This document shows, piece after piece, positions 38,021 to 53,119 of a stretch of 57,531 bases of DNA. A program made the translations under genes and the position numbers. The stretch lies in NCBI GenBank assembly GCA_016188005.1, contig JACPIQ010000016.1:1-57531 (forward strand), read 5' to 3'. Every line of letters begins with the position of its first letter. Positions within the stretch are counted from its first letter, which is position 1. The notes below the pieces were generated by a model, which worked only from the letters and a program-made list of their open reading frames with translations, was not told the DNA's origin and did no database searches. This stretch comes from Candidatus Rokuibacteriota bacterium. Lineage in GTDB: Bacteria > Methylomirabilota > Methylomirabilia > Rokubacteriales > CSP1-6.

Positions 38021-38150
38021 GGTCGCGGCGCCGCCGAGTCCAAGCTGGCAGCCGGGGTCCCCCACGTGGGGCCCCGCTCGGCCCGGCGCCGCGCGGCCGA
38101 GGGGCCGTCAACGGCGCTGGTGCCTCTTGCACGCTCAACAAACCGAATCG

Positions 38151-38847
38151 TCATATCCCCCGCCCAAGGTAGGCGTCCATGACGTCGGCCCAGCGGGTGC
38201 GCCGGGCGAAGTCGATCTCGCGGTAGTGGAAGGCCGGGTTTCGGAATGCCGGGAGGTGGATGGAGAGCCCGCGCGCGGGGTCTACCCGCGATCCGGTGTG
38301 CGCCTCGGCGAACAGCGGGCTCCGCGCGGCTCTGCCCTCTATGGCCCGTCGCAGGTCCTCGCACCCGTGACGGATTCTCCGGCGATCGGTCGAGCGCGCC
38401 AGCTCCGTGGCGAAGTGGTGAAGATCCACGTAGGCGTCGTCGAAGAAGCGCAGCGTGCGGTGCCAGGCCAAGCGGAGGGCAGCGACCATGCCAGCCCTGC
38501 GGAGGCCCGCGAGCAGCGCCAGCGCGAGGGCACATCCATCGCCTCCACCAAGTCGTCGATCTGGTCGAGATCGATGGCGGACTGGGTGGCATCCAGGCCG
38601 GTGCCCTCGTAGGACTCGATGTAGCGGCGGACGATGGTGCGCCCAGCTCCTCGGGGCCCACGGTGGGCTTCGCGGCGAGGTCGCCGAGGATCGCCGCGTC
38701 GGGCCAGCCGGCGCCGGGCTCGATCTCCTCCGAGCCCATGAGGATCTGGGCGTGGTCGCGGAGCTGGTAGGCCACCTCGATCATGGTCATGAGACAGGCG
38801 TCCATGCCGACCAGGTCCACCTTCGGGCCGAGGAGGCGCGGTCGGTG
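38151..38847 (-). pseudogene. C11 (clostripain-like) peptidase remnant
   Basis: This stretch encodes the C-terminal half of a protein closely similar to the intact peptidase at 42919-44316, but in three frames. Frame one holds VDLVGMDACLMTMIEVAYQL through the GPEELG segment; a one-base loss near 38640 shifts to TIVRRYIESYEGTG; a second shift near 38545 leads to GMVAALRLAWHRTLRFFDDA and the end DFARRTRWADVMDAYLGRGI. The N-terminal half with the catalytic His is absent. It is a decayed duplicate. The nearby intact copy keeps the same residues in one frame. Confidence 0.8.
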
Positions 38848-39363: not shown

Positions 39364-39398
39364 CGGAGGGGCCCGCTTCCTGCCTTTTCGTGCAGAAA

Positions 39399-39543
39399 CC
39401 GGTGACAACCGGTGCAAGCGGTGACACGCCAGTATTCATGCGGGTTGTCACCGCTTCTGCACTGAGCGTCCCGGCTCGATGCACGAAGTGGTGACACGCC
39501 GCTATTCATGCGGGTTGTCACCGCTTGCACCGGTTGTCACCGG
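39399..39543. repeat. Palindromic repeat cluster, 145 bp
   Basis: Outer arms 39399-39426 and 39516-39543 are perfect 28-bp inverted repeats (outer ends CCGGTGACAACC and GGTTGTCACCGG). Within and overlapping them are two 37-bp direct repeats at 39420-39456 and 39490-39526 that differ at two bases; each is itself bounded by GGTGACA and TGTCACC. The cluster spans the last codons of the replication protein gene and the space before the next gene. Such nested repeats next to a primase/helicase gene can be an origin or a transcript-folding element. Confidence 0.75.
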
Positions 39544-42643: not shown

Positions 42644-42922
42644 TCACCGCGGGCCCGTGATCCCGAAGTCGCGCATCAGGCGGAGCAGATAGGTCCGCTG
42701 GAGCCCGAGTGTCCGCGCCGCCCGCGTGCGGTTGCCGCCGCTCTGGCGCAGCGCGCCCGCGATCAGGCCCCGCTTGAAGCCGAGAATGGCCGCATGCCAG
42801 GTCTCCGCTGCGGCCGGCGAGGCCAGCGCCGCCGAAGGCCGCTCCGGCAGCAATGTGCGCGTCGGCGGTGAGGTGCGCGGTGAAGTCAGCCACAGGGCCG
42901 CGACGGTCGGCATGGTCGTCAT
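42644..42922 (-). CDS. Fis-type helix-turn-helix protein
   Basis: A 92-residue protein. After a Pro/Thr-rich leader it has FKRGLIAGALRQSGGNRTRA followed by ARTLGLQRTYLLRLMRDFGI, the Fis-type HTH found at the C-terminus of NtrC-like activators, here standing alone. It probably binds DNA and may regulate the element. The ATG overlaps the peptidase stop (ATGA). Confidence 0.78.
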   Translation of the reverse strand: MTTMPTVAALWLTSPRTSPPTRTLLPERPSAALASPAAAETWHAAILGFKRGLIAGALRQSGGNRTRAARTLGLQRTYLLRLMRDFGITGPR

Positions 42923-44316
42923 CTCCCTTCTCCCAGATAGGCCTCGAGGAACTCCGCCCAGCGGGTGCGCCGGGCGAAGTCGAGCGCCTGGTACTGCACG
43001 GACGGGTTCCGGTAGGCCGGGAAGTAGATGGACAGCCCCCGCGCCGGGGCCATCCGCGGGCCGGCATAGGCCTCGGCGATGAGGGGGCTCTCTGCGCCCT
43101 GGCCCTCGATGGCACGGCGCACGGCGCCGCAGGCCTGACGGATGATGCGCGCGTCGGTGGCCCGGCCAAGCTCCACGGCGAAGTGGTGGAGGTCCACATA
43201 CGCGTGCTCGAAGAAGTGAAGCGCGCGGCGCCAGGCCAGATGTAGCGCCGTGGCGACATGCGCGCGACGCACGTCGCGGAGCAGCGCCCGCGCGAGGCCA
43301 TCCACCGCCTCCACCAGATCGTCGAGCCGGCCGAGATCGACGGCGGACTGTGTCGCCTCCTCGGCGCCGTGCCGGTAGGACTCGACGTAGCGCTGGACGA
43401 TGGTGGCGCCGAGCTCGGCGGGCGTCATCGTCGGGTTCTTCGTGAGGTCGCCAAGAATGGCCGAGTGGGGCCAGCCGGGGCCGGGCTCGAGCTCCTCGGA
43501 GCCCACCAGGACCTGGGCGTGGTCCCGGAGTTGGTAGGCGACCTCGATCATGGTCATGAGGCAGGCGTCCATGCCGACCACCTCCACCTTGCGCCCGAGG
43601 AGGCGGTGGGCCCGGGCCAGCAGGCGCTTGAGCTCCTGGTTGTCGAGGCAATCGCCGGAGGTGTCGTCGTAGGCAATGCCGCGGCTGATCGGCGGCTGCT
43701 GCTGGAGCTGCTCGCGGGTGGTGTGGAAGAGCGGGCGCTTCCGCCGGCGCCGCCGAGGCTCGGTGGCCGGAGACGGGCCGCCGCGCTCCCGCCTGTCGGT
43801 GCCCCGCGACAGCATCTCCGGCGGCACGTAGAAGCCGGAGCCGTGGTTCATGAGGATCAGCGCGGTCCTCTCGGCCGGGTAGCGCTCGACGCCGAAGCCG
43901 ATGAAGCCCTCCAGCACTCGCGCGTCGCCGGTGTTGGTCGGGCCGAGATCGGCCAGGAGCCGGGAGTGGATCCGCCGCGGATCCTCTCCCCGCGTCACGT
44001 AGTAGCGCCGCGTGCCATGCCAGTTCCCCTTGGAAGCGTCGTGGCCGGGGGAGCGGTCCACCTGCGCGAGGACCTCGACCGCGCCGGGCGTGGACCCCAC
44101 CCGTTCCATCTCGGCGAGGTCGGCGAGGAGTTCGCCCTCGAGATCGTTGTCCGCCGCCATGTAGGCCAGGATCAGCCACTCGGCGGTGGGCCGGCCGGCG
44201 TCGGAGGACTTGTCGTGCGGCGGGAGGCCCGGCCGGGGGCCGGGCTTGCCGCGGGAGTTGCGCCCTCCGCGGGGGTGGAAGAGGAACGGGCGCTTGCCGG
44301 GGACCGGGTCGGCCAT
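42919..44316 (-). CDS. Clostripain-like (family C11) cysteine peptidase
   Basis: A 465-residue CD-clan protease. The dyad is visible as His158 in LILMNHGSGFYV and Cys252 in VEVVGMDACLMTM, with the following QVLVGSEELEPGPGW typical of C11. The N-terminal DNDLEGELLADLAEME is the usual family opening. A Lys/Arg-rich loop at residues 174-194 (RRERGG..RRRRRKR) could be the internal activation site, as clostripain-like enzymes cut after Arg/Lys. No signal peptide is present, so the protein is cytoplasmic. GGAGGAG precedes the ATG. It lies 11 bp after the alpha/beta-hydrolase gene, and two broken copies lie downstream. Intracellular proteases of this clan in operons with membrane proteins can be defence effectors, which is only an inference here. 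Confidence 0.88.
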   Translation of the reverse strand: MADPVPGKRPFLFHPRGGRNSRGKPGPRPGLPPHDKSSDAGRPTAEWLILAYMAADNDLEGELLADLAEMERVGSTPGAVEVLAQVDRSPGHDASKGNWHGTRRYYVTRGEDPRRIHSRLLADLGPTNTGDARVLEGFIGFGVERYPAERTALILMNHGSGFYVPPEMLSRGTDRRERGGPSPATEPRRRRRKRPLFHTTREQLQQQPPISRGIAYDDTSGDCLDNQELKRLLARAHRLLGRKVEVVGMDACLMTMIEVAYQLRDHAQVLVGSEELEPGPGWPHSAILGDLTKNPTMTPAELGATIVQRYVESYRHGAEEATQSAVDLGRLDDLVEAVDGLARALLRDVRRAHVATALHLAWRRALHFFEHAYVDLHHFAVELGRATDARIIRQACGAVRRAIEGQGAESPLIAEAYAGPRMAPARGLSIYFPAYRNPSVQYQALDFARRTRWAEFLEAYLGEGR

Positions 44317-46585: not shown

Positions 46586-46951
46586 TCAGTCGAGCGTCCC
46601 CTCGAGCCACTCGCTGTCGGCGGCGAGGATCCCGTCCCGCATGGCCAGCCCCGCCGTCTCGATCCGGCCCCGCACCTCGGCGAGCTTCTCCTCGGTGAGG
46701 GCCGCCAGCTTGGCCGGCACGCGAACGCCCTGCTCCGTCACCTCGCCGCGCTGCTGGCCCACGAGGAGCCGCCACTCCGCCCACTGCCCCCAGCCCCCAT
46801 CGGCCGTCACGACGACCCAGCAGCCGTAGCGAGGGATGCCAGAACCCTCGGGGTTGCGCTGGATCATCGCCGCGACGCGCACCCCGTCGAGCTTCCCCTG
46901 CTCTTTCACCTCGGTGAGCAGCGCGCTCAGCGAGCCGTGGATGATCTTCAT
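46586..46951 (-). CDS. Unknown protein, first gene of the element's leftward operon
   Basis: A 121-residue protein with MKIIHGSLSALLTEVKEQGK, a mid-section RYGCWVVVTADGGWGQWAEW that looks like beta-strands, and an acidic tail. GGAGG with 5-bp spacing fixes ATG 46951. I do not recognise the family, though the layout is close to small phage and plasmid hypothetical proteins. It opens the leftward operon that contains the protease and hydrolase. Confidence 0.65.
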   Translation of the reverse strand: MKIIHGSLSALLTEVKEQGKLDGVRVAAMIQRNPEGSGIPRYGCWVVVTADGGWGQWAEWRLLVGQQRGEVTEQGVRVPAKLAALTEEKLAEVRGRIETAGLAMRDGILAADSEWLEGTLD

Positions 46952-47142
46952 GACGCCCTCCTCGGCACGGGATCGTTTCAACTGCGGCGCCGACGGGAGG
47001 GGAGAAGAGCAGGAGGGATGCCACGTGGAGGAAGGGCGTCGCAGCTGCGAGCGAAGTGCCTGCGAGCGCTGCGCGATCCAGCGGCTCGTCCCGCGCCGGA
47101 GTCTATCCCACGCTCGTGTCCGTTCGGCGCGCGCCGGGCCCC

Positions 47143-47356
47143 TTGTCGATTAGTTGTCGATTACTTGTCGATTGCGGCGCTGTCTTGTCGATTACGGGCC
47201 CGCTCCAGCGGTCTCGCGTGTCGATTCGAGGGGTATTCCCCGACGCGTGAGAGAGACCCGCGAGCCTGCCACGACACACTTCGCCTGCGTTGTCGCGGAG
47301 TTCCGCGTCTCGGCGAATCGACAAGCGGCTTCGCGGAATCGACAACTAATCGACAA
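47143..47356. repeat. Array of eight TTGTCGATT sites (iteron-like)
   Basis: Four exact TTGTCGATT copies lie at 47143, 47154, 47165 and 47185 (forward), one variant GTGTCGATT at 47218, and three exact reverse copies (AATCGACAA) at 47316, 47337 and 47348. Forward copies step by 11, 11 and 20 bp and reverse copies by 21 and 11 bp, close to whole helical turns. The array occupies the divergent space 46952-47525 between the leftward operon and the AlpA/integrase side, which has no gene. It could be a replication origin, an Xis/Int accessory-site array or a shared operator. Confidence 0.8.
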
Positions 47357-47525
47357 CCCCTCCCTCGATGTGACCGGGGCCCCGGAGGAGATCTGGTCGG
47401 GCGTCGCAAAGAACATCGTGCACTTCCAGGCCCTGGGAGAGCGCAGCGCTGTCGGGCACGCTCCTTGCGCTTCAGGAGCGTCAATGCGATTCAGGAGCGG
47501 CAATCCTCACAAGGAGGCGACGCCA

Positions 47526-47714
47526 GTGGACCGATTGTTGACCCTCAAGGTGATCGCGGCTCAGACGGGAACCTCCCAGGCCTTCTGGCGCAAGCTCGCC
47601 GCGCGGCGGGAGATCCCCGTCGTCAGGCTCGGGCGCGCCTGTCGCGTGCGCGAGGCAGACCTCGAGCGCTTCCTTGCCGAGCGGTGCCGGGGGGTGCGGG
47701 AGACGCCGCAGTGA
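47526..47714 (+). CDS. AlpA/excisionase-like DNA-binding protein
   Basis: A 62-residue MerR/HTH_17-type protein: LTLKVIAAQTGTSQAFWRKL is the helix-turn-helix and IPVVRLGRACRVREADLERF the wing and following helix. GGAGG lies 8 bp before the GTG at 47526; the longer open frame crosses the repeat array and is rejected. Such proteins act as Xis factors or activators of integrase expression. It lies between the TTGTCGATT array and the XRE/integrase genes, all plus strand. Confidence 0.78.
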   Translation: MDRLLTLKVIAAQTGTSQAFWRKLAARREIPVVRLGRACRVREADLERFLAERCRGVRETPQ

Positions 47715-50750: not shown

Positions 50751-50881
50751 TGGCCTCTCCCGTGCGCGCATGCGCGCCCGCCGGCGAGCGAAGAGCAATC
50801 CCGAGGGCGCAACCGGCACTAAAACCGGCACTCAGGCCTGGCGGCGTGGAAGGCGCCGCGGTGGAAGTCCCTGAAAGACAA

Positions 50882-50958
50882 TGGCGCGCCCGGCAGGATT
50901 CGAACCTGCGACCCTCGGCTTAGAAGGCCGATGCTCTATCCAGCTGAGCTACGGGCGC
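50882..50958 (-). tRNA. tRNA-Arg: tRNA-Arg (anticodon TCT)
   Basis: A 77-nt tRNA with a 7-bp acceptor GCGCCCG/CGGGCGC, the D arm GCTCAGCTGGATAGAGC, anticodon stem TCGGC/GCCGA around loop CTTCTAA (anticodon TCT, codon AGA), T loop TTCGAAT, and an encoded CCA end at 50882-50884. It looks intact. The 3' end faces the integrase side. A duplicate of its 5' half and upstream DNA begins at 52886. Confidence 0.95.
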
Positions 50959-51154
50959 GCAAGGACCTACGCGACAGCCGAGGCCAGTCTACACGGCCTT
51001 GGCGGATCTTGTGCTGGACCGAGCGCGGCACCTTCCGAGGATCGCGCCCCCCGTCAACCTCGCGGGGGCGAAATCCGAGGTTGACACCCCCCGGGCCAGG
51101 CGTTATCCGTTGTGCGACGTGGCGAACGCGGCGGCGCCGGTGAGCGGCGCCGAC
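50920..51154. repeat. Direct repeat copy 1: tRNA-Arg 5' half plus upstream region
   Basis: This 235-bp block is repeated at 52886-53119 with about ten differences. It begins in the anticodon loop of tRNA-Arg (TTAGAAGG) and runs through the 5' half of the tRNA into its upstream DNA. It contains a 10-bp perfect inverted repeat, GTCAACCTCG (51053-51062) and CGAGGTTGAC (51076-51085). Confidence 0.92.
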
Positions 51155-52885: not shown

Positions 52886-53119
52886 TTAGAAGGCCGATGC
52901 TCTATCAAGCCGAGCTACGGGCACGCAAGGACCTACGCGACAGCCGAGGCCAGTCTACACGGCCTTGGCGGATCTTGTGCTGAACCGAGCGCGGCACCTT
53001 CCGAGGATCGCGCCCCCCGTCAACCTGCGGGGGCGAAATCCGGGGTTGACACCCCCCGGGCCAGGCGCTATCCGTTGCGCGACGTGGCGAACGCGGCGGC
53101 GTCGGTGAGCGGCGCCGAC
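52886..53119. repeat. Direct repeat copy 2: truncated tRNA-Arg and upstream region
   Basis: Matches 50920-51154 at roughly 96 percent by eye. It starts inside the anticodon loop and has substitutions in the D arm and acceptor (TATCAAGCCGAGC for TATCCAGCTGAGC, GGGCACGC for GGGCGCGC), so this tRNA half is a pseudogene. The inverted repeat of copy 1 is kept in shortened form (GTCAACC/GGTTGAC). Its right edge at 53119 is followed after 42 bp by an exported-protein gene. Confidence 0.92.

Follow-up and report, generated by a model that had tools for sequence, protein, structure and literature searches.

NtrC-, NifA- and PspF-type UASs consist of several activator sites about 100–150 bp upstream of a -24/-12 promoter and include sites for divergent promoters; most characterised sigma-54 activators bind inverted repeats as dimers with a Fis-type HTH. 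Control of excision in integrative elements is generally attributed to repressors and RDFs acting on sigma-70 promoters. Sigma-54 UASs have been described at least 100 bp upstream of their promoters, which are reached by looping, and DVU0151 orthologs are sigma-54 activators whose DNA-binding domain is predicted to be a winged helix (PMC4641369). RDF sites take the form of direct repeats spaced by one turn, and binding between divergent promoters is another property of Apl (PMC7498355); RDF and BldC-type proteins both bind direct repeats with one-turn spacing (PMC7498355, PMC11963761).

Here we analysed a window of 57,531 nucleotides (the whole stretch of DNA considered), which is one complete contig (G000:C16) of a draft genome with 140 contigs and carries a repeat array that resembles each of these systems in part. 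The array shares with the NtrC/NifA/PspF-type UASs the multiplicity of sites, their distance from -24/-12 elements and the service of divergent promoters, but its 9-bp direct repeats follow 11-bp steps and form two groups that mirror each other, it lies in an integrative element, and its candidate reader is a winged-HTH (wHTH) rather than a Fis-HTH protein. With the Apl sites of coliphage 186 and the arrays of other wHTH RDF-type proteins (RdfS, Cox, BldC) it has in common one-turn direct repeats between the divergent promoters of a mobile element; in contrast to these, arrays of this type were not found at the attachment site and track sigma-54-like promoters and activators, not the HTH_17 gene. 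The island activators described below resemble the DVU0151 orthologs in their domain type, but they have no sensor domain and their genes lie beside integrases or defence genes (a CBASS operon in genome G048). Judging from the sequence, the array probably represents paired UASs for the divergent sigma-54 promoters of an integrative element.

The repeat array and its surroundings

The features of the control region and the genes flanking it are as follows.

46586..46951, minus strand: OrfA (121 aa), which opens the leftward operon; no match in Pfam, NCBIfam or PADLOC
47008..47023, minus strand: TGGCATCCCTCCTGCT, sigma-54-like -24/-12 site for the leftward operon (OrfA); an equivalent site lies 61–80 bp before OrfA in 9/9 loci
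47143..47193, plus strand: putative UAS group 1, exact TTGTCGATT four times, at 47143, 47154, 47165 and 47185 (steps 11, 11, 20)
47218..47226, plus strand: variant copy GTGTCGATT, one mismatch to TTGTCGATT, in the same helical phase as group 1
47316..47356, minus strand: putative UAS group 2, exact TTGTCGATT three times, at 47316, 47337 and 47348; inverted, toward the HTH_17/integrase operon
47454..47469, plus strand: GGGCACGCTCCTTGCG, sigma-54-like -24/-12 site for the rightward operon (HTH_17, XRE, integrase); top-scoring site of the window on both strands
47526..47714, plus strand: HTH_17/excisionase-family protein, 62 aa
48028..48246, plus strand: XRE-type HTH protein, 72 aa
48243..49403, plus strand: tyrosine integrase, 386 aa

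The array is a real, non-random feature. It spans 214 bp and holds seven exact copies of TTGTCGATT and one variant in two opposed groups, and the coordinates given by the initial annotation, which had described steps of about 11 and 21 bp, were confirmed. The steps are 11, 11, 20 and 33 bp on the plus strand and 21 and 11 bp on the minus strand, and successive offsets within each group (0, 11, 22, 42, 75 and 0, 21, 32) all fall near whole helical turns. A perfect 20-bp inverted repeat, TTGTCGATTAGTTGTCGATT, is found at both array ends, its arms 174 bp apart. When up to one mismatch to TTGTCGATT was allowed, the window had 15 matches against 3.75 expected, a count reached in none of 100 shuffles. 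The genome-wide search for the 9-mer that had been proposed as a check showed that it is not scattered: the 5.37-Mb genome has 12 exact copies, of which seven are in the array and five are isolated. Among 95 genomes of the phylum, the tandem form (up to two mismatches) occurs at only five loci; three of these are OrfA loci, and the other two (L111 and L112) lie in unrelated contexts. A host-wide regulon was considered and rejected, as the other five genomic copies are all single; one of them, in our reading, begins an IclR-type gene.

OrfA, whose start codon is at 46951 on the minus strand, and the HTH_17 gene, which begins with GTG at 47526 and is preceded by AAGGAGG, flank the array. The placement of the array between an Xis-like gene and a leftward operon, with no gene overlapping it, holds: the ORFs listed over the array are mechanical, and none is a supported gene. 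On the minus strand, leftward, OrfA is followed by small ORFs, a hydrolase-like gene (read by us as alpha/beta-hydrolase-like, with no match in Pfam), a clostripain-family protease and a DUF3854/DUF3631 primase-helicase-like protein; rightward, the HTH_17, XRE and tyrosine integrase genes are followed by tRNA-Arg. An AF2 model of OrfA has a pLDDT of 77 (moderate confidence), and a known DNA-binding fold was not supported, as Foldseek gave no PDB match at E <=0.001 with this model. No OrfA homologs were found in phages, plasmids or viral contigs. A degenerate second copy of the clostripain-family gene lies outside the primase end of the element (window 38148–38838) and is 74–83% identical to 42916–43605.

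Sigma-54-like promoter sites in the window and in related loci

Each group of the array lies about 100–130 bp upstream of its own sigma-54 (-24/-12) promoter-like site. The right-hand site, GGGCACGCTCCTTGCG, provides the strongest check: it is the sole site scoring 13.5 in 57.5 kb, and it lies 72 bp upstream of the start of HTH_17 and about 100 bp away from group 2, which is inverted. In the intergenic region (46900–47560), a sigma-70-like promoter was looked for and not found. The two flanking sites had been overlooked in the initial annotation, and as predicted promoters they explain the geometry of the array. A 19-bp direct repeat, TGCGmTTCAGGAGCGkCAA, occurs twice at and just past the right-hand -12 element (window 47466–47503) and may be a repressor operator.

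We compared the window with all OrfA loci recovered, nine in total: the window itself, seven homologs in five other genomes of the family, and L057, whose OrfA is 69% identical and whose MAG is titled as Gemmatimonadetes, another phylum. Aligning the leaders revealed a block, TGGCAyNNNNyTGCT, 61–80 bp before OrfA, which is the -24/-12 signature of sigma-54 promoters. In 9/9 loci no other sigma-54-like site within the region upstream (up to 700 bp) scored higher than this block, which in the window tied with one other. By resampling from the window, the chance per locus was at most 0.02, with several values near or below 0.1% and the lowest under 5e-5, the loci being related rather than independent so that the product is not readable as a probability, and the score having been written by us from the textbook consensus after the leaders were viewed. 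The right-hand promoter, together with L120, L147 and L054, was tested later with the score unchanged. A -24/-12 (GG-N10-GC) promoter 80–200 bp downstream of the repeats, as expected of UASs, is thus found on both sides of the window array and in 9/9 OrfA loci, one of which, G048:C9, has a weak match (11.5) and a differently placed array with 21–22-bp steps.

A short-repeat array is present upstream of OrfA at every one of these loci, and its word varies. TTGTCGATT is found in the window, G024:C44 and L057; TTGTCGTTT in G048:C270 and G024:C41, the latter additionally having TTGCGGwTT; a TTGCGATTC-like word in G049; TTGyGrTGG in G031, where OrfA is truncated; GAAAGCGGTCAT in G048:C9; and in G029 a different word in the opposite orientation, GTCTGGAAT. 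The proximal group lies 179–242 bp before OrfA in 7/9 loci, in the same orientation and mostly with 11 (or 12)-bp steps, so that a TTGyCGwTT-like group with 11-bp steps stands about 105–140 bp upstream of the promoter-like site in these seven; the place, orientation and step of group 1 are matched in six other OrfA loci. The G049 locus repeats the two-sided arrangement of the window, with an inverted distal group like group 2 and TGGCATCGCGATTGCC before the HTH gene. The independent arrays are few (about ten), and their words were compared by eye except for one computed comparison. In the literature, we found no paper on such arrays or on wHTH sigma-54 activators in islands.

Together, the promoter-like sites on both sides of the window array, the site in 9/9 OrfA loci and the 11-bp-step group in 7/9 argue for paired UASs. 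Group 1 would serve the sigma-54 promoter of the leftward OrfA/hydrolase/clostripain/primase operon, and the inverted group 2 that of the rightward HTH_17-XRE-integrase operon. We infer that an activator would occupy neighbouring 9-bp direct repeats, with one repeat for each turn of the helix, and loop to the sigma-54 polymerase at the -24/-12 element, where ATP would be spent on promoter opening, and that the genes for excision would in this way be switched on jointly with those for cargo or replication. If this is true, a low-leak sigma-54 switch with an ATP-driven activator would represent another regulatory principle by which an island stays silent before it is triggered, and a single signal would tie excision to replication and to a possible conflict module (the clostripain-family protease and the hydrolase).

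Candidate readers of the array

The genome of the window (G000) encodes a single rpoN and has 46 PF00158 matches, and it therefore has both the sigma factor and the AAA+ activators that UASs would need. We examined the tails at 30 of the 46 loci; nearly all read as Fis-type, and one activator instead carries a C-terminal DeoR-like winged HTH and has no N-terminal sensor. The genome has three wHTH activators in all, two of which (contigs C80 and C139) look frame-shifted. The intact one is on contig C4, in a tRNA-Sec island, where it is accompanied by an array, a sigma-54-like site, an HTH_17 gene and an integrase; the motif beside it is TTGCGTTTT, not TTGTCGATT. No sigma-54 activator is present on the window's own contig.

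In islands other than that of the window, wHTH activators and arrays are physically linked. Two of these islands show the gene order wHTH activator, TTGCG-TTT array, sigma-54 site (CGGCACGGGCCTTGCC, TGGCATAGCCGTTGCC), HTH_17 and integrase. In G048, the array that directly follows a wHTH-activator gene is identical at 34/35 positions to an OrfA array on another contig of this genome, the flanks being different. The array of G046 shares GGAGTTTCCTTGCGGTTTC with G024:C41, L147 and the OrfA array of G024:C41 having 19 consecutive bases in common. A homolog of the activator (52%) is found on the contig of OrfA in G048:C9; the activator of G046:C378 adjoins an integrase, and that of G048:C309 adjoins a CBASS-like pair (SMODS nucleotidyltransferase and patatin). 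Searching with a profile of seven sequences gave strong matches (E of about 2e-16 or less) in 7/57 genomes of the family, four of them among the six genomes with OrfA, a co-occurrence with a hypergeometric probability of about 1e-3, worked by hand from these counts. The same profile gave no strong match in the L057 genome, which has a TTGTCGATT array, nor in G029 or G031; the links were seen in G048 and the two other islands, and no wHTH activator matched to TTGTCGATT was found in G000 or G095. A search of phages and plasmids with the activator was little informative, as among the matches listed most covered the AAA+ domain only.

The most likely reader of such arrays, acting in trans, is in our view a sensorless PF00158 AAA+ activator with a C-terminal DeoR-like wHTH, to which we give close to an even chance, if anything slightly under it. 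These data support the wHTH activator as a general array reader, and for TTGTCGATT in particular such a reader is putative: the intact G000 copy stands next to a different word, and the profile gave no strong match in the genome of L057. The wider proposition, that a family of integrative and defence islands, in our data mostly from one uncultured lineage, possesses a sigma-54 circuit of its own, with a sensorless wHTH AAA+ activator, rapidly diversifying 11-bp-phased arrays and joint firing of excision and cargo, is tentative, and we rate it somewhat below even. That the same enhancer is read by a Fis-type activator of the host or by some other protein, which would be a sub-case of paired UASs and not exclusive of them, we regard as unlikely. 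The abundance of Fis-type tails among the 46 PF00158 matches and the TTGTCGATT arrays of G000 and the L057 genome without a matched wHTH activator would suit such a reader, but the array motif differs between islands of one genome, and just five single copies of TTGTCGATT occur elsewhere in the genome; both observations suggest an island-borne reader.

At L144 (9086–14375), a wHTH activator stands by a CBASS-like operon (SMODS nucleotidyltransferase and patatin) and is preceded by a small zinc-ribbon-like ORF; in L120 and L146, too, the activator is preceded by a similar small ORF. Downstream of the L144 array, a typical -24/-12 site was looked for and not found.

Alternative explanations of the array

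The initial annotation had expected cooperative binding by an initiator, Xis/AlpA or a regulator. A regulator bound cooperatively and in helical phase in the divergent control region of a mobile element agrees with our results, and the other two options fare less well. Mechanistically, the strongest rival is the 62-aa HTH_17 protein (excisionase/BldC-like), since direct repeats with one-turn spacing are what RDF and BldC-type proteins bind: it would bind the 9-bp repeats head-to-tail and repress or switch the divergent promoters, as Apl does in phage 186. Its gene adjoins the array, and direct repeats about one turn apart do lie beside an RDF-type gene. Nevertheless, near-identical arrays occur on contigs without an HTH_17 match (G048:C309 and G024:C44), and where HTH_17 proteins accompany near-identical arrays they are only 27% identical, so the motif does not track the RDF protein. 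Exact TTGTCGATT is also absent within 3 kb of the tRNA-Arg at 50882, where only single copies with one mismatch are found, and the fixed distance to the sigma-54-like sites would be left without explanation. We therefore consider the Xis/AlpA option decidedly unlikely. With its paired direct repeats, its two opposed groups and an integrase gene nearby, the array might also consist of arm-type sites of the tyrosine integrase in an intact attP. However, the array does not flank an attachment-site core; that place is held by pairs of AGTGCCGGTT, which occur by the tRNA-Arg half-site of the window and, in the G004 element, at either end, and which make arm sites in the array the least probable of the readings. 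In detail, GGTGCCGGTTTT pairs stand beside both tRNA-Arg half-sites around the 74%-identical integrase of G004 (L037), and the same pair in the window, AACCGGCACTAA (50811–50834), stands beside tRNA-Arg. This latter pair likely represents the arm-type sites of the integrase.

The initiator option, in which the repeats would be iterons for the DUF3854/DUF3631 primase-helicase of the element, is very improbable. Helically spaced repeats in an element with its own primase are suggestive of it, as are iteron-like TTGTCGrTT repeats inside a phage replication-type gene in L115, yet G048:C270 has the same type of array with a DnaD/DnaC-like pair instead, and TTGTCG arrays lie beside unrelated replication genes in L051 and L053, so the repeats do not track an initiator. 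Moreover, both the window and L051 have a different iteron-like array at the 3' end of the primase gene. In the window (39397–39542) it comprises six copies of TGTCACCGsTT, oriented both ways and partly contained in a direct repeat of 41 nt, and at the equivalent place in L051 (16048–16200) the word is TGTCGACGsTT; the window array at 39397–39542 is a candidate replication origin.

Viral matches to the array were set aside, some lying in replication-type coding sequence (L115 and L119) and others in unrelated sequence. In L115 (11320–11390), the linker of the phage replication-type gene encodes TTGTCGrTT at 11–12-bp steps, which resembles iterons within an initiator gene. Lastly, a direct repeat of about 235 bp (95–96% identity; window 50920–51154 and 52886–53119) begins in the anticodon loop of tRNA-Arg and brackets a DUF433/PIN-like pair; it looks like a second small insertion or a tandem event at this tRNA.
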